Origin: a virus
Reading direction: 5' to 3' (one strand)
Length of the DNA stretch: 64,000 nt
Virus record (IMG/VR): IMGVR_UViG_3300008262_000201
Coordinates: 1-64,000 of that record
In this document: piece after piece, positions 2,915-46,240 of the stretch
Numbering within the stretch: position 1 is the first letter of the stretch
How the letters are laid out: the number at the start of each line of letters is the position of its first letter
Position numbers and translations under genes: made by a program
The notes under the pieces: model-generated
Told to the model about the DNA's origin: nothing
Seen by the model: the letters and a program-made list of their open reading frames with translations, nothing else
Database searches by the model: none

Positions 2915-3191
2915 GCTACGTCGTATAACACTAGCGTTATATCATTCGCTATTTGCGAATGGCGAATAGATTATCCCGAGTAATCGAAGTATTGGCATGT
3001 ATTGGCAATTCTTTGTTGCCAAACAATATTAAGTATTAATACCTACCCATCCCTGGTATGTACCTCTAACTAGTGGGTATGTACCAGGGATATCCTTCAT
3101 TCCTATCTATATCTAGTACACACGTACCAAAAATATCTCCTCTTATACCAAGGGATAGTACACATGTACATGGGGAAGACGGGGGAAACCG
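2915..3191. other. Non-coding control region rich in inverted repeats
   Basis: No gene on either strand. It contains ATTCGC/GCGAAT around TATTT (near 2944), an ATCCCTGGTA ... TACCAGGGAT inverted repeat (about 3050-3092), and several GTAC-centred palindromes (for example GTACACATGTAC near 3160). It leads directly into the iteron element at 3192. A regulatory or replication role is inferred. Confidence 0.5.
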
Positions 3192-3386
3192 TCAATACCA
3201 TCTTATTCAACAGTGAATACAGTCTTATCTAACCCTCTATAGGGTTTCATACTCTTCTAGAAAGCTGTATGGATAAGCTGGTATTCATCCCTTAGGTACC
3301 AGGTTTAATACACTTTTTTAACAACGTATGAAACCCTATATCTAAGATAATAAGACGGTATTCACCCTTCTATAACACGGTATTCA
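3192..3386. repeat. Iteron/inverted-repeat element, copy 1
   Basis: Two 15-bp perfect inverted arms, TATAGGGTTTCATAC (3238-3252) and its complement (3326-3340), are separated by 73 bp. On the left, iterons TCAATAC (3192) and TGAATAC (3214) are 22 bp apart. On the right, GTATTCA (3358 and 3380) are 22 bp apart. A further GGTATTCA sits in the centre at 3280. A second copy with the same spacings is at 37667-37860. Candidate replication origin or protein-loading site. Confidence 0.8.
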
Positions 3387-3401
3387 TCCTTTTACCCATC
3401 C

Positions 3402-4643: not shown

Positions 4644-4837
4644 CTAAGAAATCTCCCATTAGTTTTGATCGCACCATTCATGGTGTGAACATCACTGAAC
4701 ATGGTATCAAGTCAGTAAGTAAACAGATCAAGCTTGGTCCATTCCAACTGACTGTCAACGCCAGTCCCAATGGCGTCAAAGGATCAGTCAGTATCCCTGG
4801 CACAGGCTTGAGCATTCCAAACATTAAGTTAATCTAA
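4640..4837 (+). CDS. DUF4236-like small protein
   Basis: 65 residues. The segment KLGPFQLTVNASPNG...SVSIPGTGLSI resembles the 'LGP...LNLSKSGVSVS.G..G....IPGTGLSY' beta pattern of DUF4236. The short length suggests a single-domain version. Function unknown in the family. It overlaps the preceding gene (ATGA-type junction). Confidence 0.65.
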   Translation: MTKKSPISFDRTIHGVNITEHGIKSVSKQIKLGPFQLTVNASPNGVKGSVSIPGTGLSIPNIKLI

Positions 4838-4868
4838 AGATCTGGGCATCCTTACGGTGTAAGTCCCA
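4825..4868 (+). repeat. 44-bp direct repeat, copy 1, carrying leader hairpin g
   Basis: Identical to 5212-5255. It includes the stop codon of the preceding gene and most of a family 1 hairpin (4842-4868: TGGG/CCCA, CAT opposite TGTAAGT, inner CC-TTAC-GG). In this copy the outer C is opposite C and unpaired. The ATG at 4897 follows 28 nt later. Confidence 0.85.
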
Positions 4869-4896: not shown

Positions 4897-5214
4897 ATGC
4901 CTAAGAAACAAGCACTCAATCCTCACTTCCCTACTGGTCCTAGAACTATTACTCTTGATCTGACTGAAGATCAATGGTGGGCATTGATTAACATGCTCAG
5001 AGCACGCACTGATTTCTATAAGAAGTTGCGGTTTGATCTCATTAGATTAAAGGATGATGGCCTTGAGAAACAAATTGATCAGTACACTGAATCCATGGAA
5101 GACATTGTATCTATATTGGAATCAGTACAAGAACAAGTAGCACCTTTGTATTACACAAAAGCAAAGCGTGCTGAGTGGCGTAAGCAACGTATTGATACAC
5201 CTGATTTCCCATAA
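4897..5214 (+). CDS. Unknown 105-residue helical protein
   Basis: Begins MPKKQALNPHFPTGPRTITLDLTEDQWWALINMLRARTDF. It then appears as a long helical, charge-rich region to the end. No family recognised. It has a family 1 leader and ends inside the second copy of the 44-bp repeat. Confidence 0.75.
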   Translation: MPKKQALNPHFPTGPRTITLDLTEDQWWALINMLRARTDFYKKLRFDLIRLKDDGLEKQIDQYTESMEDIVSILESVQEQVAPLYYTKAKRAEWRKQRIDTPDFP

Positions 5215-5256
5215 GTTAATCTAAAGATCTGGGCATCCTTACGGTGTAAGTCCCAG
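5212..5256 (+). repeat. 44-bp direct repeat, copy 2, with leader hairpin h
   Basis: Repeats 4825-4868 without a mismatch. The hairpin (5229-5256) has the full CTGGG/CCCAG stem. It is 31 nt before the ATG at 5288. The identity implies a recent duplication of the leader element together with its flank. Confidence 0.85.
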
Positions 5257-5733: not shown

Positions 5734-5774
5734 TTGGTTTCTCAATTGAATTCAAACGCTGGTACTTAAAATGA
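5730..5774 (+). pseudogene. Truncated N-terminal copy of the gene at 6289
   Basis: Reads MIGFSIEFKRWYLK then stop. The first nine residues are identical to the start of the protein at 6289 (MIGFSIEFKKFYF), but most codons differ synonymously. It overlaps the stop of the upstream gene exactly as the full-length copy overlaps the stop of the HNH gene. It is best explained as the left half of a gene interrupted by the endonuclease insertion. Confidence 0.75.
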
Positions 5775-6902: not shown

Positions 6903-8642
6903 ATGCAATTCGCTCTGCCTTCCAATCTTCAGACTGAACTCTTGGCTTATGATCCAAAGCTCAAGGCTTTGGCTAAGCAAGCCAACAAACCAGAAGCCAA
7001 GAAACCGACGTATCCACTTGGCAAGATTCCTTGCTTGATACCAACACACATTGTGCGTGAAGCCGATCAGCAAGATGCAATTGCTCAGATCAATCAGCGT
7101 CCAGCACCACAGCGTTATCAAGTCTTTACTACACCTGTAGATGTAGCAACACCACAGGCTAGGCTCAAGGTCATTGCCATCCTGTATCACTACGAACAGG
7201 TGTGGTATGCAGCATGGTTACCTTCTAAGCAAGAGAAGGATCAGTATGTGTACGGTCATGCGTATGCATTCAAGAACACATCAGCTACACAGAAGACTGC
7301 ACCAAATTGGATATGGAATAGCAAAGATGATTGCGTTGTCCACGACATTGGTCGTGGCTCACAACTCTTTGTCTACACCAATACAGCAACCATAGAAGAT
7401 ATCCGCGAAAAAGATTACGATAGCTGGCGTAGTTATCCATGGCGAGCAGGTAACCTTTACTGCCAGAAGGGTTATACAATTCGTGATACTGTTGTTAATG
7501 AATTTGATAACAGCCTGCGGGAAAATCTCCCAACATGGGAAGATTCCCGTGGATTGTTTGATCGCATACGCTGCAAGAATATCTTTGATGCAGCAAACAT
7601 ACCGTCAATGATGTCAAAGCATCTTGATGAAACTCAAGGCTTGACTGTTGATAACTTCATTGCTGCTTCACTTGCATTCAAAGAAGAACACGGCTATAGC
7701 TCATTAACGTATTCTGTTGTCACAAAGATTCAGCACATTGTTACTAAACCTGCCATCAAGAAACTATTGCAAGCAGAGTTAAACCGTAGCATTGATGCAT
7801 ATAATGATCCCAATAACAAACACCAGCAACCTATTAGGCAAGGCTTTGCAACTTTTGTGCAGATCCTTAACTCAATCGAGTGGATTGATTCCATCTGGCC
7901 AGACTGCCCTATTGATTACTATCAGACTTATTTCAAAGAACTTAAGTATCTTCGCTTGACTGAAGTGCGTCTACGCAGTGGGGCTACACAAGAGCCTTGT
8001 TTAATCGACTGGTTACGTGAGCACATGCCTATTGCATCACTGTTTACAATCATGCGTAAGTACTTGGACAAACAACTTACTGAATACAATGGTCGCTGGG
8101 TTGACAGCGATGTTGGGTACCAGCGTCAACGCTTTGGTGAACTCAACGATACATTCTCCATGATGCTTAAGATCCTTCATGTTGGTAATACATTGGAGCC
8201 ACCGAAGCGTTGGCGTCTGACCGAGTTCCATGACTACGTACAATCCGAAGCATGGAAGATCCAGAATCCAAAGGAGTCCCTACGTCAAGATCTATTTCCT
8301 GAACCCATCAAAGTCACACGTCTTGATAGGGTATGGACATTCTTTCAGCCTGTTGACACACATCAACTATCCATGTGGGGGCAAGCCGTACGCAACTGCG
8401 TTGGCTCTGCATCCCACTATGCGGATGACATCAAGAAACGTAAGCACTTCATTGTGTTATGTATGATTGATAACAAGCCCACCTTCACAATTCAATTGGT
8501 TGTGGACCAGGGTATGATGTCAGTCAAGCAGATTGCTGGCGTTGGCAATCGCAGTCTTGACTCAATAGAACGCAACGATTACACGGAAGCCTTCCGTGAG
8601 GTCTTGCAATTGCGTGAATCTGAGCTAAGCTCTAAGAGCTGA
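6903..8642 (+). CDS. PcfJ-domain-like large protein
   Basis: 579 residues. The C-terminal region (about 490-550) carries a PcfJ-like signature: W-G-x-x-V-R-N-C-V-G-S ... ADDIKKRKHFIVLC...KPTFTIQL..., followed by V-K-Q-I-A-G-V-G-N-R. PcfJ domains occur in conjugative elements and phages; their biochemical role is not settled. The ~480-residue N-terminal part has no recognised motif. Start set by the family 2 leader. A hairpin terminator follows at 8655. Confidence 0.8.
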   Translation: MQFALPSNLQTELLAYDPKLKALAKQANKPEAKKPTYPLGKIPCLIPTHIVREADQQDAIAQINQRPAPQRYQVFTTPVDVATPQARLKVIAILYHYEQVWYAAWLPSKQEKDQYVYGHAYAFKNTSATQKTAPNWIWNSKDDCVVHDIGRGSQLFVYTNTATIEDIREKDYDSWRSYPWRAGNLYCQKGYTIRDTVVNEFDNSLRENLPTWEDSRGLFDRIRCKNIFDAANIPSMMSKHLDETQGLTVDNFIAASLAFKEEHGYSSLTYSVVTKIQHIVTKPAIKKLLQAELNRSIDAYNDPNNKHQQPIRQGFATFVQILNSIEWIDSIWPDCPIDYYQTYFKELKYLRLTEVRLRSGATQEPCLIDWLREHMPIASLFTIMRKYLDKQLTEYNGRWVDSDVGYQRQRFGELNDTFSMMLKILHVGNTLEPPKRWRLTEFHDYVQSEAWKIQNPKESLRQDLFPEPIKVTRLDRVWTFFQPVDTHQLSMWGQAVRNCVGSASHYADDIKKRKHFIVLCMIDNKPTFTIQLVVDQGMMSVKQIAGVGNRSLDSIERNDYTEAFREVLQLRESELSSKS

Positions 8643-26141: not shown

Positions 26142-28204
26142 TGGCTAATGAAAAATTAACCGAAGAACAACTTCGGGCTATCCAAGCAATGGGAGCTTCC
26201 CTATCCACATTGGGAATAGGGCCTGCAACAATGCTTCCCTTTCAAGACTTGTTGCAATCAAACGCAATTTCAAAAATTAAACAACAAGAAGCAATGCGGA
26301 TGTTTCCGCAAGCTGACTCAAATCTATTTGATTACACGCGCGGTGGAACACTGCCATATAAACAACCAATGTTAGCTAATGAAGTAATTCCATTAACTGA
26401 AAAAACTGCTAGTAGTCGAGTTTTTGATAAAGAGATCAAAACAAATTCTCCATTAAGTGCAAGAGAAATTTATAGAAGTAGATCATCTCTTCCTGAGTAT
26501 TTAAGTGGGCGTCCAGGTGCTCCTAGTCCTGAGTTAGGTTCTTTTGCAAACGCTATTAGCAATAAAACAATTTTTCCAGAAGGTGATATACAAGCAATTA
26601 CTGTAACGCCTGGTCCAAACCCTGGTCGTTTTGCACAAGATTATGCAGAAATCTTAGCAGATAAGTTAGGCAAAACATTAACTGAATATGAACAAGAACA
26701 ATTAAACAGCGGAACTAATGTTACAAAACTACAAAACAAAATTAAAGCATTAACTTCTAAAACACCAGGTACGGCTGGTTATATTTGGGGCAATGTAAAA
26801 TATCCTCAATATAGTTATGCAGAAGGAAATTGGGGTCTTGGACAAAAACTAGCAGGAGAAAATCCTTCTATATATTTGTCAAGAATAAATGCTGATCCAT
26901 CAAACGAAGCAAGGTATCTTTATACAGGTGATATTTTAAAAGGACAAGGAGGCATTGAGCCAAGGGTTCCTTTTAAACAATACGAAGATCTTGGTCCCGG
27001 TACAGGTCCCTCTTGGGGCATAGCTCCAAATAAAGACATCAGTTTTAGAAAAGATTTAATTGGTGCCAGGGGAGAATTAACAACAGGAGATTTGCAAGCA
27101 CTGCTCGCTGAACGAGGATTGCCTTTTGAATATCAAGTAGAAGGTGATCGCTATACAAGAAAAAAACCTGGATTTGTATTACGAGCCAACTTAGAAAAAT
27201 TAGCTAACTCTGAAAGCATTAGTCCAAGCCAGGCCGCTGAAAAATACGCGCGTTTGATTCCAAATGTAGGTGAACCTGTAATACCTCCAACGGCTGCGGT
27301 TAGCGCAAGAGTAGGGGAGTTTCCAGAACAAGGGCAAATGGCTAGCCCATTTGGTCGCTTTGCCGCCAAAACAGATTTACGGCAAATTGGCATCTTACCG
27401 CCAGGGGATAAAGCTACCTATAGTCCTTTTACAGTAGATGAATTTACAAATGTATTTCAACCTGAAAATACAAGATACAATGCAAGTTCCTTAAAAGAAA
27501 TAACCCCATCAAAGGTAGTTCCGGCATCACCTGGATCTTTATTTGATGAAGACTTTATCGAAGGCAGTTACCAATTCAACATAAACAGAGATGTATTAAG
27601 ACCTCAAGCTGCAAATAAACTCTTAAACAAAACAACTAAAACTTTAATTGAACAAGCAAAACCAGTTAGAGCTATGGGTCTTGGTGGTTTAGCTACAGGT
27701 GGAGTTTTAACTGCAATGGATCCTGCCGTTATTGATGCTTTGTCTCGTGGTGATTACCAACAAGCAGGGACAACTGCTGCATTAAACACTGCTATTGGTT
27801 CTGTTACAGGTGGCGCAACGGCTAAGGGTTTACAAGCCTTGCAAGCTGCTGGATACGCAAGACCTGCTGCTGCAATTGGAACTGTTCTTCCTGCAGTTGG
27901 TGGTGTTCTTGGTGGAGTTGGTTTAGCTGAAACTGGTAAAGCTCTTAACCGTGCATATCGTGCACAAACAGGTAAAGATTTTCCAACCAGAAATCAACCT
28001 ATACAACCTACTCCCTACACAGGGCCAACTCCTTCTATACAACCACGGATGGGCAAAGCTGTTTTAAATAACAGGCTTGTTGACGTACCTTATGGTTCTG
28101 TAGCAGGAACCAAAACAGTTGGTCGTCCTTGGTGGGATAAAGCTGGATCCGCATTCCAGGGTTTACTAAATCGTTTTAATGCCGGCAGTATTGTTGGACG
28201 TTAA
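26141..28204 (+). CDS. Large virion-associated protein with hydrophobic C-terminal region
   Basis: 687 residues from ATG 26141; a TTG at 26138 is possible. No enzymatic motif. About residues 530-600 form Gly/Ala-rich hydrophobic segments (GLGGLATGGVLTAM; AAIGTVLPAVGGVLGGVGLA) that could be membrane-inserting, as in ejection proteins. The gene is AT-rich compared with its neighbours. Its 3' end overlaps the minus-strand HNH gene by 4 bp. Confidence 0.6.
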   Translation: MANEKLTEEQLRAIQAMGASLSTLGIGPATMLPFQDLLQSNAISKIKQQEAMRMFPQADSNLFDYTRGGTLPYKQPMLANEVIPLTEKTASSRVFDKEIKTNSPLSAREIYRSRSSLPEYLSGRPGAPSPELGSFANAISNKTIFPEGDIQAITVTPGPNPGRFAQDYAEILADKLGKTLTEYEQEQLNSGTNVTKLQNKIKALTSKTPGTAGYIWGNVKYPQYSYAEGNWGLGQKLAGENPSIYLSRINADPSNEARYLYTGDILKGQGGIEPRVPFKQYEDLGPGTGPSWGIAPNKDISFRKDLIGARGELTTGDLQALLAERGLPFEYQVEGDRYTRKKPGFVLRANLEKLANSESISPSQAAEKYARLIPNVGEPVIPPTAAVSARVGEFPEQGQMASPFGRFAAKTDLRQIGILPPGDKATYSPFTVDEFTNVFQPENTRYNASSLKEITPSKVVPASPGSLFDEDFIEGSYQFNINRDVLRPQAANKLLNKTTKTLIEQAKPVRAMGLGGLATGGVLTAMDPAVIDALSRGDYQQAGTTAALNTAIGSVTGGATAKGLQALQAAGYARPAAAIGTVLPAVGGVLGGVGLAETGKALNRAYRAQTGKDFPTRNQPIQPTPYTGPTPSIQPRMGKAVLNNRLVDVPYGSVAGTKTVGRPWWDKAGSAFQGLLNRFNAGSIVGR

Positions 28205-28605: not shown

Positions 28606-28607
28606 AT

Positions 28608-28677
28608 CGGGATGGAAGGTACTGCCCCTTCTCCTTTGCGTCCCAAACGCAATGTGATACTTTTCTACTACATCCCG
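28608..28677 (-). tRNA. tRNA-Pro-like (anticodon UGG) with aberrant T loop
   Basis: Acceptor CGGGATG/CATCCCG, anticodon stem TTGCG/CGCAA with loop TTTGGGA (anticodon TGG) and T stem GAAGG/CCTTC are present. The T loop is GGCAGTA instead of the usual TTC-containing loop, and the D stem is weak. It lies 2 nt from the neighbouring tRNA-like gene. Confidence 0.65.
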
Positions 28678-28709: not shown

Positions 28710-28737
28710 ACCATTTTGTTGACGTCAACAAAATGGT
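28710..28737. repeat. 28-bp perfect palindrome
   Basis: ACCATTTTGTTGAC followed by its exact complement, centred on GACGTC. On the minus strand it is followed by TTTTC, so it may act as a terminator upstream of the tRNA-like genes. As double-stranded DNA it could be an operator. Confidence 0.75.
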
Positions 28738-33156: not shown

Positions 33157-33342
33157 ATGAGCACCCACGTCATCGGCGTGGGCGAATGGATGCATACCCT
33201 TGTTAGCCGCATGGCCAATGCGGCGGATGGGGATTTGTTTTGTCTTCCAACGCCTATGCATTTACATGCTTACAACTTGGTAAAAGACGATCAATATCCC
33301 GATCGCAGCTTTAGAATCTCTCTTACCTACCCAACGAAATGA
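33157..33342 (+). CDS. Unknown 61-residue protein
   Basis: MSTHVIGVGEWMHTLVSRMA then an aromatic C-terminus (LHAYNLVKDDQYPDRSFRIS). The stop overlaps the primase ATG. No family recognised. Confidence 0.6.
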   Translation: MSTHVIGVGEWMHTLVSRMANAADGDLFCLPTPMHLHAYNLVKDDQYPDRSFRISLTYPTK

Positions 33343-35972
33343 CGCCGAGTATGAACCAGCAGGCAGTAAAACCGGGCGAAATTCGGCTCGATCTCATTCC
33401 CATTGACTGGCCCTTGACCCCACTGGGTCCCAACAAAGATCCTTACGTCATGGGATGGCAGAACAAACCGTTTACTAAAGAAGAAATTGAAAATGAAATT
33501 ATCAACGGAGAATGTAAAGCTATCGGATTACTTGGTGGTCCTGCCTACAACCATCCTTATGGTCTCGTTTGGGTTGATGTTGACGGACCATCCGTCTATG
33601 AACTCATCGAACAGATTTCCAACCTCCCAATACTCGATGCATTGCCGCCCACCCTTACCATCCTCAGTGGCAAAGCAGGCCGAGAGCGTCGCCTCTACAA
33701 AGTAAGTAAAGAAAAACAAAAGCATTTCATTCGTAACAAATACACATGGACCTCGCAGGGGTCCATGGAAAAACTTGAGATCTTGTGGAAGCGGCACCAA
33801 GGCGTATTGATGGGTGCGCATCCAGATACGCAAGGTTATTTCACTGCCGAAGGTTTGGGATTTGAATGGGCAGACAAATTACCTGAACTTCCGGATTGGG
33901 TATTGAATGGCATCATTACCAGGAATGCAAAGCAAGGGCGTCCTGCTGAAGAAGTCTCACGCATCATCGGTAACTCGTTCGCAATCACCAGTCGCATTGG
34001 ATTGGAACGGGATATGCAATTGGCAGTTGCTGCGATGTGGGCACTCCCCATTGAGGCAGTCGATGACTATGACATTTGGATTGCGATCGGACAGTCGCTC
34101 CATGAGTTGGATGAATCCCTGCTTGATCAATGGGATGAATGGTCCAAACAAAGTGACAAATACAAAGAGAACGAATGCCATAAGCGTTGGTTATCCTTTA
34201 CAAAAGGTGGTGGCCGGGGCATTGGTACGCTTTACCATCTGGCTGAGCAGAATGGATGGAAGCGTCCGCAGGAAGACAAGGTTTCTTCCCCTGACGATGC
34301 TACGATCAATCTGGCGGCAAGCATTCTTCCCGAAATCGAAAGAAATGTGGAAGAAGAAATGAATCGCCTTCTCAACACTGCAACTCCAACCGACACAACT
34401 CTAATGAACACCGAAGATTATGGCGATGATGTACAACCTAAAAGCGCCAAGAAGAATAAAGAGAAGGAACTCAGGCAACCTAAGAATGAAGTTGCGGACA
34501 AACTACTTGGAATCTATGCAAACAATCTGCTCTTTAGTCTCCCGCACAATCAATTCTTTATGTATGACCCTAGCCAAGGTCTGTGGAGCAAAGTAAGCAA
34601 GATTGAAATGCTTGGTGATATCCGTTCCAAGCTACAAGCTCTTATTACTAGTGGTTGGTTACGCGAAGGGTTTAGCTTTCAAATGCTTGATGATATGTTC
34701 AAGCAACTGCAAGCAATGGTCCCGTGTGATAAATGGCACGAGGCAACAGATGTTCTGCTATTCACCAACGGTGTACTTGACGTCACAACAAAGGAACTGC
34801 GGCCATTTGACCGTAATTTGCATATGACGCAACAGATGCCATATGCCTATAACCCTCAAGCAACCTGCGAACCAATCATTGATTGGCTTCGTTACACGCA
34901 GCATGGTTCTGAAAAACGTACGCAAGTTCTTCGTGCATGGCTACGGGCAACTCTTCTTGGTCGCCACGAGCTTCAAAAGTTTCTTGAGTTGGTTGGTCCT
35001 GGTAAATCTGGTAAATCCACTTATGCAAACCTATGTGTTGCACTGGTAGGTAAACGTAACGTCTGCTCCACAGAGCTAGAACAGATTGAGAAGAACCGAT
35101 TTGAAACTGCAAGTTTCATGGGTAAGAAAATCATTCTGTTCCAAGACTCTGACCGTTATGGTGGCAGTGTTTCAAAACTAAAAGCCATTACTGGTGGTGA
35201 CTGGATTCGTTCTGAGTTCAAATACCAAGCAGATCAACTGGAGCCTTTCCAGTTCCAGGGTGTTGTCATCATTACTGCTAACGAAGCAATTCAGTCCACC
35301 GACTACACCTCAGGTCTTGCCCGTCGCCGCCTTACTATTCCGTTCGACCGTCCTTTTACTGGTGGGCAAGAGCAACAACGTACCTTAATGGGTTTCGATA
35401 GTAAGGGTACTCCTGAAGGAGATTTTGCACCTTTGCTTCCAGGGCTTGTCAACTGGATCCTGGCTATGTCTGAGTCGGAAATGCGTGACTACTTGATGGA
35501 GACATCAAAGCACGTTGATTTCTTCCAGGCTTATGAGAAGGATCAAGCCATTCGTTCCAATCCGATTTTGGATTGGCTGGATAAACGCGTTATCTTTGTG
35601 CCAGGGGCGGAAGTTGCTATGGGTATGTGTAAACCTTCACCAGGGGGTGTCAATTACTATGTCGACTGGACCACGCAGGTGTATCCGTCTTACGCAGAGC
35701 ATTGTCGTAGTGCCAATGTTGGTGTATCGGGGCGTTCTCGCTTTGAGGTCCTACTTATGGACATCTGTAAAAACCAACTGAAACTAAATGTCTACGCAAC
35801 CAAAAAAACCAATGGGTTGGTAATTCACAACATCTTGATACGTGATGGTGTCAGGGATGACTACAAGTGTTACCCCTCCATCCTGGAAGTAGCTGCAGAC
35901 CCCGCCAAATACAAAGAAATGTACGGTGTTAACCCTGCGATAATGGAGGAATACATTGCGACAAACCATTGA
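33339..35972 (+). CDS. Primase-helicase (prim-pol, PriCT-2-like, D5_N/SF3 helicase)
   Basis: 877 residues. N-terminal prim-pol-type domain with GLVWVDVDG (D80, D82) and an RERRLYKVS segment. Middle PriCT-2-like region (about 225-315: YDIWIAIGQSLHEL ... TLYHLAEQNGW). SF3 helicase at about 553-660: Walker A GPGKSGKST, Walker B KKIILFQDSD, motif C VVIITAN, arginine region ARRRLTIPF. Makes primers and unwinds at the fork; works with the polymerase and SSB. The ATG overlaps the preceding stop; the stop overlaps the TTG of speD. Confidence 0.93.
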   Translation: MTPSMNQQAVKPGEIRLDLIPIDWPLTPLGPNKDPYVMGWQNKPFTKEEIENEIINGECKAIGLLGGPAYNHPYGLVWVDVDGPSVYELIEQISNLPILDALPPTLTILSGKAGRERRLYKVSKEKQKHFIRNKYTWTSQGSMEKLEILWKRHQGVLMGAHPDTQGYFTAEGLGFEWADKLPELPDWVLNGIITRNAKQGRPAEEVSRIIGNSFAITSRIGLERDMQLAVAAMWALPIEAVDDYDIWIAIGQSLHELDESLLDQWDEWSKQSDKYKENECHKRWLSFTKGGGRGIGTLYHLAEQNGWKRPQEDKVSSPDDATINLAASILPEIERNVEEEMNRLLNTATPTDTTLMNTEDYGDDVQPKSAKKNKEKELRQPKNEVADKLLGIYANNLLFSLPHNQFFMYDPSQGLWSKVSKIEMLGDIRSKLQALITSGWLREGFSFQMLDDMFKQLQAMVPCDKWHEATDVLLFTNGVLDVTTKELRPFDRNLHMTQQMPYAYNPQATCEPIIDWLRYTQHGSEKRTQVLRAWLRATLLGRHELQKFLELVGPGKSGKSTYANLCVALVGKRNVCSTELEQIEKNRFETASFMGKKIILFQDSDRYGGSVSKLKAITGGDWIRSEFKYQADQLEPFQFQGVVIITANEAIQSTDYTSGLARRRLTIPFDRPFTGGQEQQRTLMGFDSKGTPEGDFAPLLPGLVNWILAMSESEMRDYLMETSKHVDFFQAYEKDQAIRSNPILDWLDKRVIFVPGAEVAMGMCKPSPGGVNYYVDWTTQVYPSYAEHCRSANVGVSGRSRFEVLLMDICKNQLKLNVYATKKTNGLVIHNILIRDGVRDDYKCYPSILEVAADPAKYKEMYGVNPAIMEEYIATNH

Positions 35973-36331
35973 GCAACGGTCGTCATCTGATCCTTGACCT
36001 TTATGGTTGTGATCAAAACCTTTTAGATAACTATGAGGAGCTCCAGCGTTTGCTGGAAGCTTCTCTTGTTTTGGCGGGAGCAAATATCTTACGTATCTTT
36101 GGTGAGAAATTTGAACCGCAAGGCGTTACCTTGTTGGCACTATTGTCTGAATCCCACGCATCTATCCACACGTGGCCAGAAGTAGGGTATGCGGCAGTTG
36201 ATCTATACACCTGTGGTGATACCACGCTCACACATCGGGCTGCAGAATTTTTGAAATCAAAACTCAAGGCAACAACAGCGGAAGAAAAAGAGCTTGTGCG
36301 ATCAATTGAACCTCTTGATTGTGTAGAGTAA
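35969..36331 (+). CDS. speD: S-adenosylmethionine decarboxylase proenzyme
   Basis: 120 residues; makes decarboxylated SAM for spermidine synthesis. Matches the short prokaryotic class: GRHLILDLYGCD (4-15), then LLSESHASIHTWPE (58-71) where the chain is cut before S62 to create the pyruvoyl cofactor, H67 and C82 (YTCGD). The start codon is TTG (35969) inside the primase stop. Known as an auxiliary gene in marine cyanophages. Polyamine may aid DNA packaging or host metabolism. Confidence 0.94.
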   Translation: MSNGRHLILDLYGCDQNLLDNYEELQRLLEASLVLAGANILRIFGEKFEPQGVTLLALLSESHASIHTWPEVGYAAVDLYTCGDTTLTHRAAEFLKSKLKATTAEEKELVRSIEPLDCVE

Positions 36332-36351
36332 ATCGGAATTATTCCGATCTA

Positions 36352-37614
36352 ATGACTAAGAAAGCAAAACTTTTGTGGTGTGGTGACATCGTTGCCATGA
36401 CCGGCTTTGCACGTGTAACTGAAAATGTTATCTCTCGTCTGAAAGACGACTTTGAAATTGTTGTTCTTGGTAACAACTGGTGGGGTGATCCAACGCCACT
36501 TCAGCAGGAGTACAAGATGTACCCGTCATCTAACCGTCATCAGACCGCACCTTTTGGTGAGCAACGCATTCGTGAGATCGTTGAACGTGAACAACCCGAC
36601 GTGGTATTTACGATCAATGATATGTGGATTATTAATGAGCAATACAATCAAATTAAGGATCTGCACAAGGCTGGCAAGTTTAAATTTGTTGGCTATGCAC
36701 CCATGGATTCGTATGCATGGACAGGTTGCTTAGCGGATACTGCCAATGAATGGGACGCTGTGGTCTCGTACACAGAATTTGGTGCACACGAATTTATGGC
36801 TGGTGGTATCACCAGGCCTATCTCTATTATTCCGCATGGTGTGACTCCTGGTCAGTTCTATCCAGTAGATAAGGCAGAGGCACGCCGCAAGCTGGGACTT
36901 AAAGAAGATAGCTTCATTGTTTTCAATGGTAACCGCAATCAATTCCGCAAACGGATTGACATCACAATCAAAGCATTTGCTGCGTTTGCGGTAGATAAAC
37001 CTAATGCAATGCTTTACCTGCACATGGGGCTCAAGGACCAGGGCTGGGACATCATGGAGGTGTTTGCACGTGAGATGACACGTGTGGGTCTTGATCCAAA
37101 TGGACGCATCATTATGACGTCAAATCAACCCAGTCCTCCGAATGTATCGGTGGAAATGCTGAATGACATCTATAACGCATGTGATGTTGGTGTCAATACG
37201 TGTAAAGGTGAGGGCTGGGGTCTTGTCAACTTTGAACACGCTGCCTGTGGTGTGCCGCAGGTAGTGCCCGACCATACGTCATGCAAAGAGATCTTCGAGG
37301 GCTACGGCGAACTGATCCGTTGCGACCACATCGATGTGGATACCAACTACGCACGTGAGATGCCATGCCCTTCCTCTGATCACCTTGCTGAGATCTTGAC
37401 GTACCTGTACCAAGACAAAGGCATTCGTGAATGGGTTGGTACACGCTGCCGAGAACGAGTACTGGATCCGCAGTTCTCATGGGACACAGTTGCGTCTCAA
37501 TTTGGTGGCATCTTTGAGGAGGTGTTGTCCCAAGAACCTGAACCTGTGGCAAAACCTAAAGAAAAACGGAAGGAACGAAAGGATCGTACGAAGACCCGGA
37601 AGCTTGGTAAGTGA
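36352..37614 (+). CDS. GT4-type glycosyltransferase
   Basis: 420 residues from ATG 36352 (upstream in-frame 36319 would overlap speD). GT-B fold: N-terminal LLWCGDIVAMTGFARVTENV, C-terminal FNGNRNQFRKRIDITIKAF and the E-x7-E type region KGEGWGLVNFEHAACGVPQV. It transfers a sugar from an NDP donor; the acceptor (DNA, glycan, host surface) cannot be told. An ATCGGAAT/ATTCCGAT hairpin lies 2-20 nt before the ATG. Confidence 0.88.
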   Translation: MTKKAKLLWCGDIVAMTGFARVTENVISRLKDDFEIVVLGNNWWGDPTPLQQEYKMYPSSNRHQTAPFGEQRIREIVEREQPDVVFTINDMWIINEQYNQIKDLHKAGKFKFVGYAPMDSYAWTGCLADTANEWDAVVSYTEFGAHEFMAGGITRPISIIPHGVTPGQFYPVDKAEARRKLGLKEDSFIVFNGNRNQFRKRIDITIKAFAAFAVDKPNAMLYLHMGLKDQGWDIMEVFAREMTRVGLDPNGRIIMTSNQPSPPNVSVEMLNDIYNACDVGVNTCKGEGWGLVNFEHAACGVPQVVPDHTSCKEIFEGYGELIRCDHIDVDTNYAREMPCPSSDHLAEILTYLYQDKGIREWVGTRCRERVLDPQFSWDTVASQFGGIFEEVLSQEPEPVAKPKEKRKERKDRTKTRKLGK

Positions 37615-37666
37615 CGTTTGATGGTACGTATGTACTGTGGAGAACGTACGGAGATGGGTAAAACAA

Positions 37667-37860
37667 TGAATACCGTCCTATTCAAGGATGAATACAGTCT
37701 TATCTAACCCTCTATAGGGTTTCATACGTTGTTAAAACAGTGTTGCATTTGTGGAAAAAATCATGAAGCCACACAGAGGTGCAACACTTTTTCAACACAG
37801 TATGAAACCCTATATCTAAGTAAATAAGGCGGTATTCACCCCTCCACAAGCCGGTATTCA
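37667..37860. repeat. Iteron/inverted-repeat element, copy 2
   Basis: Same plan as 3192-3386: arms TATAGGGTTTCATAC (37713-37727) and complement (37800-37814), 72 bp apart; TGAATAC at 37667 and 37689 (22 bp apart) and GTATTCA at 37832 and 37854 (22 bp apart). The loop sequence is mostly different from copy 1, whereas arms and iterons are kept, and AAGTGTTGC-type extensions of the arms are also shared. Upstream flank (GTAC-rich, GGAGATGGG) also resembles copy 1. Confidence 0.8.
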
Positions 37861-37924
37861 CAGTTTCTCTTGCGTACACTTCCCAACAGTGGTACAGTGT
37901 CATGGTCCCCACTACCAGGAGGTC

Positions 37925-38353
37925 ATGGCACGCACCTACCTAGAGATGCTTCCGCTTTGGTACGTACAGGACCAGCTAGAGCTCTCTGACCAATACGCGA
38001 CAGGTCTTGCGTGGAAGACGCAAGCACGTGGTCACAAGCCCGGTGACATAGCTGGCCGGCAGCATGGCAAGTACTGTTACGTTTCTCTTTGCGGCGCACG
38101 GTACCAAGCGCATCGCATCGTGTACTACTTACGTACTGGTAGCGATCCAGGGAACGCAGACGTCGTTCACGACCCCTCCAACGTCACGTACGACAACCGT
38201 CAGGAGCTAGCCCTCAAACAACGCCGCACCCGTCCTGCGCCTTCATACCGACGCCGCACACGTAACGCCGAAGGAGAGCTGGTCTACAACCTGGAGAACG
38301 GCATGTCCTTCCACAAGTACCAACGCCTTATCGGCAACCCACTCAGTTCTTAA
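37925..38353 (+). CDS. Degenerate HNH-like protein
   Basis: 142 residues from ATG 37925 (37889 in frame is possible). YQAHRIVYYLRTGSDPGNAD then VVHDPSNVTYDNRQELALKQ copies the 'aHRivy.l..G..p.g..VdHiD.n..dNR.eNL' layout but lacks the canonical first HH/DH pair (VVHD). The C-terminal half is Arg-rich. Directly follows iteron element copy 2. Confidence 0.65.
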   Translation: MARTYLEMLPLWYVQDQLELSDQYATGLAWKTQARGHKPGDIAGRQHGKYCYVSLCGARYQAHRIVYYLRTGSDPGNADVVHDPSNVTYDNRQELALKQRRTRPAPSYRRRTRNAEGELVYNLENGMSFHKYQRLIGNPLSS

Positions 38354-38355
38354 TC

Positions 38356-39075
38356 ATGGCCAACTACACCAAACGCATCAACGAACTGGCTTCTGTACTG
38401 TCGCCTTTCCGGTACGTTGCCAACATTGAGTTACTTACGGATGCACAGTTAAGTGCACATGGTTATTACAGGGGATTTATATGCCCCCATGGGCATACCA
38501 TTCGTGACAAGACATATCACTGGTGTTACGAATGTGTTCGTAAAATTTCCAATAACAACTGTGGTTTTGACATCAACTATATTGATGGCTTGTACAAACA
38601 TCGCCTGCTATCCATCTGGAGCAAGATACCTGTAAAGGATTTTGAAGAGTGCTGGGAAGCACCTGCGTTAACAAAAGCGCGCATTCGTTTCCCTTCCTAT
38701 CGTTCTGCTAACAGTAAAAACCTAGCTGAAAACATCAGTGCACATAAAGTCATTTATCAATGTGCATGGGGAGATGTTGGCAAGATGGTTGTAACACGTA
38801 CGTGCCGCAATAAAGATTGTCTTAATCCTTTGCATATGATTTCAAGTTGGAATCGCACTTTCCCACCCGTTGAGATCCAACCGTTCCATCACACGTTTGA
38901 CCCCAGCAAATTAATGCACGCTGCAGATAACCAGCTAAAAGAAACACCTGAACCCATTATGAAAGCCAAGTACAAACAAACGATTCAACATCCGTTGGTG
39001 AACAAAAACACCCCGGATTATGATGATACACAGGAGCTGTATTACGGTTCATATGCCCAGGAATTCAGTAGTTAG
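38356..39075 (+). CDS. HNH-type nuclease with extra zinc site
   Basis: 239 residues. N-terminal FICPHGH...YHWCYECV gives a zinc knuckle (about 41-61). C-terminal (about 128-168) AHKVIYQCAWGDVGKMVVTR followed by TCRNKDCLNPLHMI matches the HNH_3 pattern with C-x-N-x-x-C-x-N-P-x-H. Probably a site-specific or homing nuclease. It follows 2 nt after the previous HNH-like gene. Confidence 0.75.
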   Translation: MANYTKRINELASVLSPFRYVANIELLTDAQLSAHGYYRGFICPHGHTIRDKTYHWCYECVRKISNNNCGFDINYIDGLYKHRLLSIWSKIPVKDFEECWEAPALTKARIRFPSYRSANSKNLAENISAHKVIYQCAWGDVGKMVVTRTCRNKDCLNPLHMISSWNRTFPPVEIQPFHHTFDPSKLMHAADNQLKETPEPIMKAKYKQTIQHPLVNKNTPDYDDTQELYYGSYAQEFSS

Positions 39076-44443: not shown

Positions 44444-46240
44444 TTACGGAAGAATAATTAGTGGGCCTTGGATTACAAACCCACTTGCGCTACCGGAAAC
44501 AACGCCAGAACATACGATGGCTGGGGTTGCTCCAGAAGGTGTGGTTACTCTTAACGTCGATCCTGTAATTGACGTAAAAGTACCCGTTGTGCTGCTAACA
44601 GTTACTGCATTAACTGATGTGCCGGTAACCGTAGCGCTTGAAATACTGGTTGCAAAGTTAGCAGTGTTACCTGTAACAGTCGTACCAGAGAGATAAGTAA
44701 ATATTCCACTAGGTGAAACAACATTACTTCCACTGATTGTTCCCGAAGAAACAATGCCCCCTGTGGAAAAAATGCCTGTACCTAATACCGATAAGTTACC
44801 GGAAACAACGGTGTTAACAAAAACAATGTTTGTAAAAACACCAGATACGGCCGAAATTAATCCGGCTTGCATAGTGTCGCCGGTAATAACAGCTCCACTT
44901 ACAGTCTGGAATCTTCCTGACGTACTTAAAACAGTATTGCCAGTGATTGTGGCACCGGACACACTAGTGGTAAATGTACCGACTTGACCCGTTAAGTTTG
45001 TTGCAAGTACTGTGTTACCGGTAACGGTGGCACCTGAAACACTAGTAGTACCAATGACTGTAACGCCTGTGACATTTGTAAATTGACCTGCGTTACCAGT
45101 GACCGTTGCGCCAGAAACACTGGTAGTGCCAATGACGGTGGCGCCTGTGACCGTCGTAAATTGTCCGGCATTACCTGTTACTGTCGTACCCGACACTCTG
45201 CCAAAGTTACCGGTAACCGAAGTGACAGTCCCTGCGTTAACAACGGTACCTGTAACAGTTGCCCCTGATAAGTTTGTAAACGAACCAGAAACTCCCGTTA
45301 TTGTTCCAAAGTTACCAGCATCTCCTGTAATTGTTTGACCGGAAATAACCTGGGTAAATACACCAGAAATTCCACTGACATTACCAAAAGCACCCGTATT
45401 GCCGGTTACTGTTGCTCCCGAAACACGTGTAGTGAATGTTCCGGAAACACCAGTAGCGTTAGATACTAAAAGTGTATTGCCCGTAATTGTGGCACCTGAT
45501 ACCTGATTAGTAAAAACCCCTGAAACACCAGAGACTGTTGAGAATTGTGCAGTAATTCCAGTGACTGTTGTTCCTGATAAGGTCCCAGTGACACGTACGC
45601 TGCTTGCAAATTGTGCAATACCCGTGACGGTTAGTCCACTTGCAACAGATAAGTTTCCGCTGACGTCAAGAATGGGTGTTCCTAAAACTTGGAACGTACC
45701 GGTGGTTGCGGCAACGGTTGTTCCTGTGAATGTAGTACCTGTTACGTTGGTAAACGTGCCGTTTGTAAAGAAAGCACTAACACCACTTGTTGTGGTACCA
45801 GTAAGACTTGTAAAGTTTCCCGTTGAGAAAGACGCAGTAGCTCCTGTCGCCAAAGTTGTGAAGGTACCTGTTACTGCATTGACTTGAGTACCTTGAATAA
45901 AGGTGCCTGTTACGGTGTTGCCACTGATCGTACCGCTGACAGTGGCATTGTTTTGAACAACAATTCCACTAAACGTACTAAGGCCAGACGCAGTTACCGT
46001 ATTAAAACTGGAGTTGCCACTTACTGTTAAGTTGCCAGTGATAGTGACGTTACCGCTAATTAAAGCGCCACTGCCAGGGGCGTAATATAAATCGAGATAA
46101 TCCCTGAATTGAGAAAAGGTAATTTTTTTGTTGCGCAGTGACGGGTCCACCTCAAAAACGTGGACCAGGGTCATGACATCCTGATCTACAATTTCGCCTG
46201 CTGCAATTGCAGGAAATTCGGTAATACGGCGGTTTGCCAC
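44444..46240 (-). CDS. Large repetitive tail fibre
   Basis: 598 residues, GTG start at 46240. N-terminal adaptor ITEFPAIAAGEIVDQDVMTL, then about 500 residues of repeated (V/I)SGxTVTGN xxxF xx(V/T)SGxxGxFT units forming a beta-helical shaft, with a short C-terminal end. Probably an attachment fibre or shaft protein. Part of the repeat is exactly duplicated (see 45014). Confidence 0.85.
   Translation of the reverse strand: MANRRITEFPAIAAGEIVDQDVMTLVHVFEVDPSLRNKKITFSQFRDYLDLYYAPGSGALISGNVTITGNLTVSGNSSFNTVTASGLSTFSGIVVQNNATVSGTISGNTVTGTFIQGTQVNAVTGTFTTLATGATASFSTGNFTSLTGTTTSGVSAFFTNGTFTNVTGTTFTGTTVAATTGTFQVLGTPILDVSGNLSVASGLTVTGIAQFASSVRVTGTLSGTTVTGITAQFSTVSGVSGVFTNQVSGATITGNTLLVSNATGVSGTFTTRVSGATVTGNTGAFGNVSGISGVFTQVISGQTITGDAGNFGTITGVSGSFTNLSGATVTGTVVNAGTVTSVTGNFGRVSGTTVTGNAGQFTTVTGATVIGTTSVSGATVTGNAGQFTNVTGVTVIGTTSVSGATVTGNTVLATNLTGQVGTFTTSVSGATITGNTVLSTSGRFQTVSGAVITGDTMQAGLISAVSGVFTNIVFVNTVVSGNLSVLGTGIFSTGGIVSSGTISGSNVVSPSGIFTYLSGTTVTGNTANFATSISSATVTGTSVNAVTVSSTTGTFTSITGSTLRVTTPSGATPAIVCSGVVSGSASGFVIQGPLIILP
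45014..45169 (-). repeat. Tandem 78-bp repeat inside the fibre gene
   Basis: 45014-45091 and 45092-45169 are 26-codon near-copies encoding VSGATVTGNAGQFT(T/N)VTG followed by (A/V)TVIGTTS. The third-position differences show the duplication is not brand new. Confidence 0.75.

Follow-up and report, generated by a model that had tools for sequence, protein, structure and literature searches.

In the 64,000-nucleotide window analyzed here, which represents nearly the whole of a 64,223-base virus record, two quasi-palindromic elements of approximately 200 bp were identified that are probably built as replication origins. The element at 37652–37866 (copy 2) occupies the ancestral site, and the element at 3177–3400 (copy 1) is a later duplicate, which would serve either as another origin or as a helper comparable to crr of phage P4. 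The record belongs to an S-EIV1-like freshwater cyanophage; Synechococcus phage S-EIV1 itself has a circular genome of 79,178 bp, encodes a primase 52% identical to that of the window and matches its DNA in part. No origin for S-EIV1-like phages was found in the literature searched, and all complete genomes examined from this group contain the element and hence a candidate origin.

Architecture and gene context of the elements

Within the limits given above, the spans of about 200 bp lie at 3191–3386 and 37664–37863. Copy 1 is intergenic; in an alignment of 211 bp, its sequence is 75% identical to copy 2 (E 3e-32). Both elements also align with their own reverse complements, copy 1 across 3194–3384 and copy 2 across 37661–37866 (E 5e-17), and their G+C content is 35–40% compared with 45% for the window. 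Both contain a pair of inverted 15-bp arms, TATAGGGTTTCATAC, located at 3238–3252 on the plus strand and 3326–3340 on the minus strand in copy 1, and at 37713–37727 (plus) and 37800–37814 (minus) in copy 2. The arm 15-mer has four exact matches in the record, all of which are the arms of these two elements.

To map the flanking iterons, the whole window was searched with the 15-bp consensus TGAATACCGTCTTAT, allowing up to two mismatches. All nine iterons recovered (9/9) lie inside the two elements, including four pairs with a spacing of 22 bp. Copy 1 carries an outer left iteron at 3192–3206 (plus strand, TCAATACCATCTTAT, two mismatches), followed at 22 bp by an inner left iteron at 3214–3228 (plus, one mismatch); on the other side, the inner right iteron at 3350–3364 (minus) equals the consensus, and the outer right iteron, again at 22 bp, lies at 3372–3386 (minus, one mismatch). 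The corresponding iterons of copy 2, each with at most two mismatches, are found at 37667–37681 and 37689–37703 on the plus strand and at 37824–37838 and 37846–37860 on the minus strand. When the window was simulated 60 times with a first-order Markov model, no pair with this spacing appeared.

Pattern counts thus reproduced exactly the inverted arms and TGAATAC iterons that an earlier note on this DNA had placed at 3192–3386, with a second copy at 37667, as well as the 22-bp iteron spacing on each side. The central iteron it reported near 3280 is real (3273–3287, minus strand, two mismatches), yet it is present in copy 1 only. The note was also right that both copies share the same iteron-to-arm spacing; its values of 24 bp on the left and 18 bp on the right arise because the two sides were not measured to the same end of the 7-mer. 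If the outer iteron ends are used, the geometry of each copy is exactly symmetric, with iterons starting 46 and 24 bp outside each arm. A separate inverted repeat of 16 bp (ATCCCTGGTATGTACC), its halves 11 bp apart, lies at 3049–3091, about 100 bp upstream of copy 1, and is possibly a terminator or a protein site.

Copy 2 is situated directly downstream of a glycosyltransferase gene (36319–37614, plus strand, phrog_2170), which is a conserved marker of synteny. On its other side lie an HNH endonuclease gene (37889–38353, plus, phrog_99) and then a conserved HNH-like endonuclease gene (38356–39075, plus, phrog_1872, E 8e-11). Considering this neighborhood, the elements could be targets or nicking sites of the adjacent HNH endonucleases, serving recombination-dependent or nick-initiated replication, or homing. 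The HNH-like gene indeed lies just downstream in all clades and is accompanied by the second HNH gene in most of them, and an annotated endonuclease gene also follows the palindrome of phage BPP-1. However, some clades lack the phrog_99-type gene or have it fused, no HNH gene adjoins copy 1 (the nearest being an HNH/AP2 gene at 5771), and Pfam detected no nuclease domain in the BPP-1 protein. Moreover, pRN1-type origins function without a nuclease (PMC4234260), and we regard a role as an HNH target as unlikely. As to the fusions, in clade C (L040, L043 and L044) an N-terminal HNH-like part is joined to the conserved HNH-like gene.

Other repeats were observed elsewhere in the window. A perfect 44-bp direct repeat (4825–4868 and 5212–5255) surrounds a small gene at 4897–5214, and a 598-aa gene on the minus strand (44444–46240) contains internal repeats of 66–83% identity at 44927–45570. 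A perfect 28-bp palindrome (28710–28737) lies beside a minus-strand tRNA at 28607–28677 that matches Rfam but was missed by ARAGORN.

Conservation in relatives and pairing of the arms

An exact pattern scan detected the element in close relatives, several of which carry both copies. The recognizable arm 15-mer is absent from more distant relatives, whose primases are 50–66% identical to that of the window, and BLAST of the element against phage records returned chance matches only. Even so, most of these more distant relatives have a quasi-palindrome of approximately 150–350 bp at the same place. Among 80 related loci gathered via the HNH-like protein family, 67 contain a quasi-palindrome (E < 1e-3) that is flanked by the glycosyltransferase and HNH-like genes and lies downstream of the primase gene. 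The remaining 13 loci showed none at this threshold, some of them because the contig ends there, and no further palindrome of this kind was found elsewhere in the 80 loci (about 435 kb).

A genome-wide scan for palindromes of 80–450 bp revealed exactly one element per genome, always at the copy 2 site, in nine relatives whose sequences are complete or nearly so, and exactly two in the window and in the relatives G002 and G003. These counts identify copy 2 as the ancestral element and copy 1 as the derived one. The sister genome G022 leads to the same conclusion, because its copy 1 site is empty: the flanking genes are present (protein identity 99% and 79%) but are separated by only about 133 bp that contain no element, compared with 487 bp in the window. 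This order of descent had been overlooked in the earlier note. Together, the clade with two copies and its sisters with one provide a natural experiment for asking whether a phage benefits from having a second origin.

That note had named a lack of conserved spacings among relatives as grounds for refutation, and within the window's clade the spacings are conserved. In ten distinct clade elements, three of the copy 1 type and seven of the copy 2 type, the inner distance of 24 bp is kept on both sides, and the loop between the arms keeps its length, 73 bp in the copy 1 type and 72 bp in the copy 2 type. Further out, the palindrome itself persists, but the 22-bp spacing is less well kept: outside the window's clade, where the iterons are clear, they appear only weakly, in part of clade B, at 22–23 bp and mainly on the left side. 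In the S-EIV1 record KJ410740, the palindrome occupies 7843–7955; two identical repeats of 16 bp are located at 7713 and 7873, and weaker inverted copies at 7924 and 8121. A three-armed version was observed in L043 (14380–14573, G012), where the palindromic element has its left half duplicated in direct orientation.

A long stable hairpin is predicted for each element on both strands; absolute fold scores are no independent evidence here, because the elements were chosen as palindromes. In a comparison between elements, native arms pair with a mean of -81 kcal/mol, whereas pairing of each arm with that of another element reaches -34 kcal/mol. Among relatives the sequence of the element drifts beyond alignment, and the arms remain complementary. 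Full-length chimeras of the copy 1 and copy 2 arms showed no advantage of native pairing; because the two copies have almost the same iterons and 15-bp arms, only the loop arms discriminate.

The two loops, at 3253–3325 in copy 1 and 37728–37799 in copy 2, differ in sequence, yet each pairs with itself. In copy 2 the inner arms are strongly paired (GTGTTGCA/TGCAACAC), and the ends of the copy 1 loop are partly self-complementary (TGTAT/ATACA and CTGGTA/TACCAG). Shuffled sequences paired as well in 0 of 500 cases for copy 2, 1 of 500 for L121 and 18 of 500 for copy 1, the last being a weak to modest signal. The loop does diverge between the copies, as noted earlier, but it is not free to do so, because its arms still pair within each copy, with strong pairing in copy 2 and modest pairing in copy 1; this retained self-complementarity was not recognized in the earlier note.

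Stable long hairpins on both strands, together with the constant position of the ancestral-site element after the glycosyltransferase gene, could also be expected of a transcribed structured RNA or of a terminator or attenuator forming a long RNA hairpin behind that gene. Across 43 elements, however, the better-folding RNA strand was the plus strand in 23 cases and the minus strand in 19. This lack of consistent strand bias disfavors a single-stranded RNA and fits a DNA element. In addition, the Rfam search returned tRNAs only and no family within the elements, a terminator needs neither some 200 bp nor iterons outside its stem, and the element is singular genome-wide in relatives; an RNA function therefore appears improbable.

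Another possibility is that the elements are neutral, either quasi-palindromes tidied by template-switch mutation or small functionless mobile repeats. Quasi-palindromes can correct themselves via strand switching, and such mutation could partly maintain arm complementarity without selection; copy 1 also resembles an insertion relative to G022. Against this stand the syntenic position, which is fixed over deep divergence, the occurrence of a single element in the nine relatives and of none elsewhere, the geometry kept in ten distinct clade members, and the paired iterons outside the core. Neutrality is, in our view, very unlikely, and a role as replication origins remains the preferred interpretation.

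A candidate initiator and a proposed mechanism

The likely partner of the elements is the 877-aa primase-helicase encoded at 33339–35972 on the plus strand. Pfam identified Prim-Pol, PriCT_2, D5_N and DUF5906 domains above cut-off, the protein also exceeds the cut-off of TIGR01613, the model of the P4-family primases, and related known structures include the SaPI5 primase-helicase and poxvirus D5. Copy 2 does not lie directly 3' of this gene; it is located about 1.7 kb away, with two genes between.

AlphaFold2 modeling of the whole primase was poor (mean pLDDT 56), so the C-terminal part was modeled alone (mean pLDDT 75). The model contains a predicted winged-helix domain at residues ~739–840 (35553–35858, plus strand), and its best PDB match is the P4 origin-binding domain 1ka8, with a Foldseek probability of 1.00, an E-value of only 0.016, and a VIA Z of 9.7 at an rmsd of 3.2 Å over 93 residues; the RFX winged helix gave a Z of 8.2. 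In P4, the origin-binding domain binds the origin iterons. A match between a predicted fold and the P4 domain does not by itself establish function. The earlier suggestion of protein binding as at origins is nonetheless supported indirectly by the synteny, the predicted P4-type domain and precedents. GC skew, which had been proposed as a check, showed no consistent switch at the elements, and neither GC nor keto skew gave a consistent signal as an origin locator.

Searches for partner proteins also bear on two further explanations. Two direct copies, each with core arms and outer repeats that resemble the core-type and arm-type sites of recombinases, might recombine with each other as a site-specific recombination or dimer-resolution site. 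Neither tyrosine (PF00589) nor serine (PF00239) recombinases were detected in the record and four relatives, in searches whose controls worked, and the nine relatives scanned genome-wide have only one copy. This explanation is highly improbable and, for the known recombinase families, largely refuted. Regularly spaced iteron arrays also occur at centromeres, but a plasmid-like partition site, the other function considered in the earlier note, is barely credible, given that five genomes gave no match to ParA (PF13614, Walker-type) or ParB (PF02195, ParB_N); the absence of known-family partner proteins in the five genomes disfavors both explanations.

For replication origins, we propose the following mechanism. 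The winged-helix C-terminal domain of the primase-helicase would bind the two inward-facing iteron pairs, whose members lie 22 bp, or about two helical turns, apart. The mirror symmetry of the element would load two SF3 hexamers face to face over the A+T-rich palindromic core, and melting of this core or extrusion of a cruciform from its complementary arms would expose single strands. The Prim-Pol domain could then prime both strands, and the phage's DNA polymerase A and SSB would extend them, so that forks would leave the element in both directions; copy 1 may also be active. More tentatively, and with considerable doubt, this lineage may have turned into a phage with two origins when its palindromic origin was copied to a site about 34.5 kb away, and the initiator may partly read the extruded hairpin, so that the sequence could drift provided that it stays complementary. 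The drifting self-complementary core offers many independent variants with which to ask whether Prim-Pol/SF3 initiators read sequence, hairpins or both, a question that was left open for pRN1.

Comparison with known replication systems

Phage P4 shares with the window a primase-helicase of the TIGR01613 family, the predicted fold of the origin-binding domain, and iterons in opposite orientations. In the P4 record, the primase gene is closely followed by the iteron site crr, with ori located about 4.5 kb beyond, a layout that resembles that of copy 2 and copy 1. The P4 primase, however, is of the TOPRIM type and not a Prim-Pol (PMC4234260), whereas the candidate initiator of the window is a Prim-Pol without a TOPRIM-type primase domain. 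No palindrome was found in the P4 record. The iterons also differ, being GGTGAACA in P4 and at best GGTGAATAC here; the resemblance of GGTGAAcA to GGTGAAtAC covers six bases only and was not counted as evidence.

The origins of phage-inducible chromosomal islands (PICIs) are located 3' of the initiator gene and consist of an AT-rich region flanked by two sets of iterons (PMC6092414). The elements described here similarly have two plus two iterons around an A+T-rich core 3' of the candidate initiator, with two genes between. In contrast, their core is palindromic, whereas the cores of PICI origins are characterized as AT-rich sites of melting and not as long palindromes, and the window's record contains no integrase, unlike an integrated island with an integrase and its own att site.

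In the crenarchaeal plasmid pRN1, a stem-loop of 100 bp lies 3' of the replication gene, which encodes Prim-Pol, SF3 helicase and winged-helix domains; it is required for replication and can be moved (PMC4234260). Its structure is conserved and its sequence is not, and the same is suggested there for phage BIP-1 (PMC4234260). In BIP-1, which is near-identical to BPP-1, we found a 104-bp palindrome at 26607–26710, about 0.5 kb downstream of the primase gene, which is not necessarily the stem-loop meant by those authors. Pfam assigns to the BPP-1 primase the same four domains as to the primase-helicase of the window, with DUF5906 below cut-off in BPP-1. The window resembles the pRN1 type in the Prim-Pol and SF3 (D5-type) helicase domains of its primase-helicase detected by Pfam, in a predicted C-terminal winged helix of that protein, in a large noncoding stem-loop 3' of the replication gene, though with two genes between, and in a structure that outlasts its sequence (-81 versus -34 kcal/mol for native and chimeric pairing). 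It differs in the size of the element (about 200 bp versus 100 bp), its outer iteron pairs, its position about 1.7 kb downstream and its duplication in one clade. By analogy with these systems, the elements are best interpreted as a pRN1/BPP-1-type palindrome combined with P4/PICI-type paired iterons.
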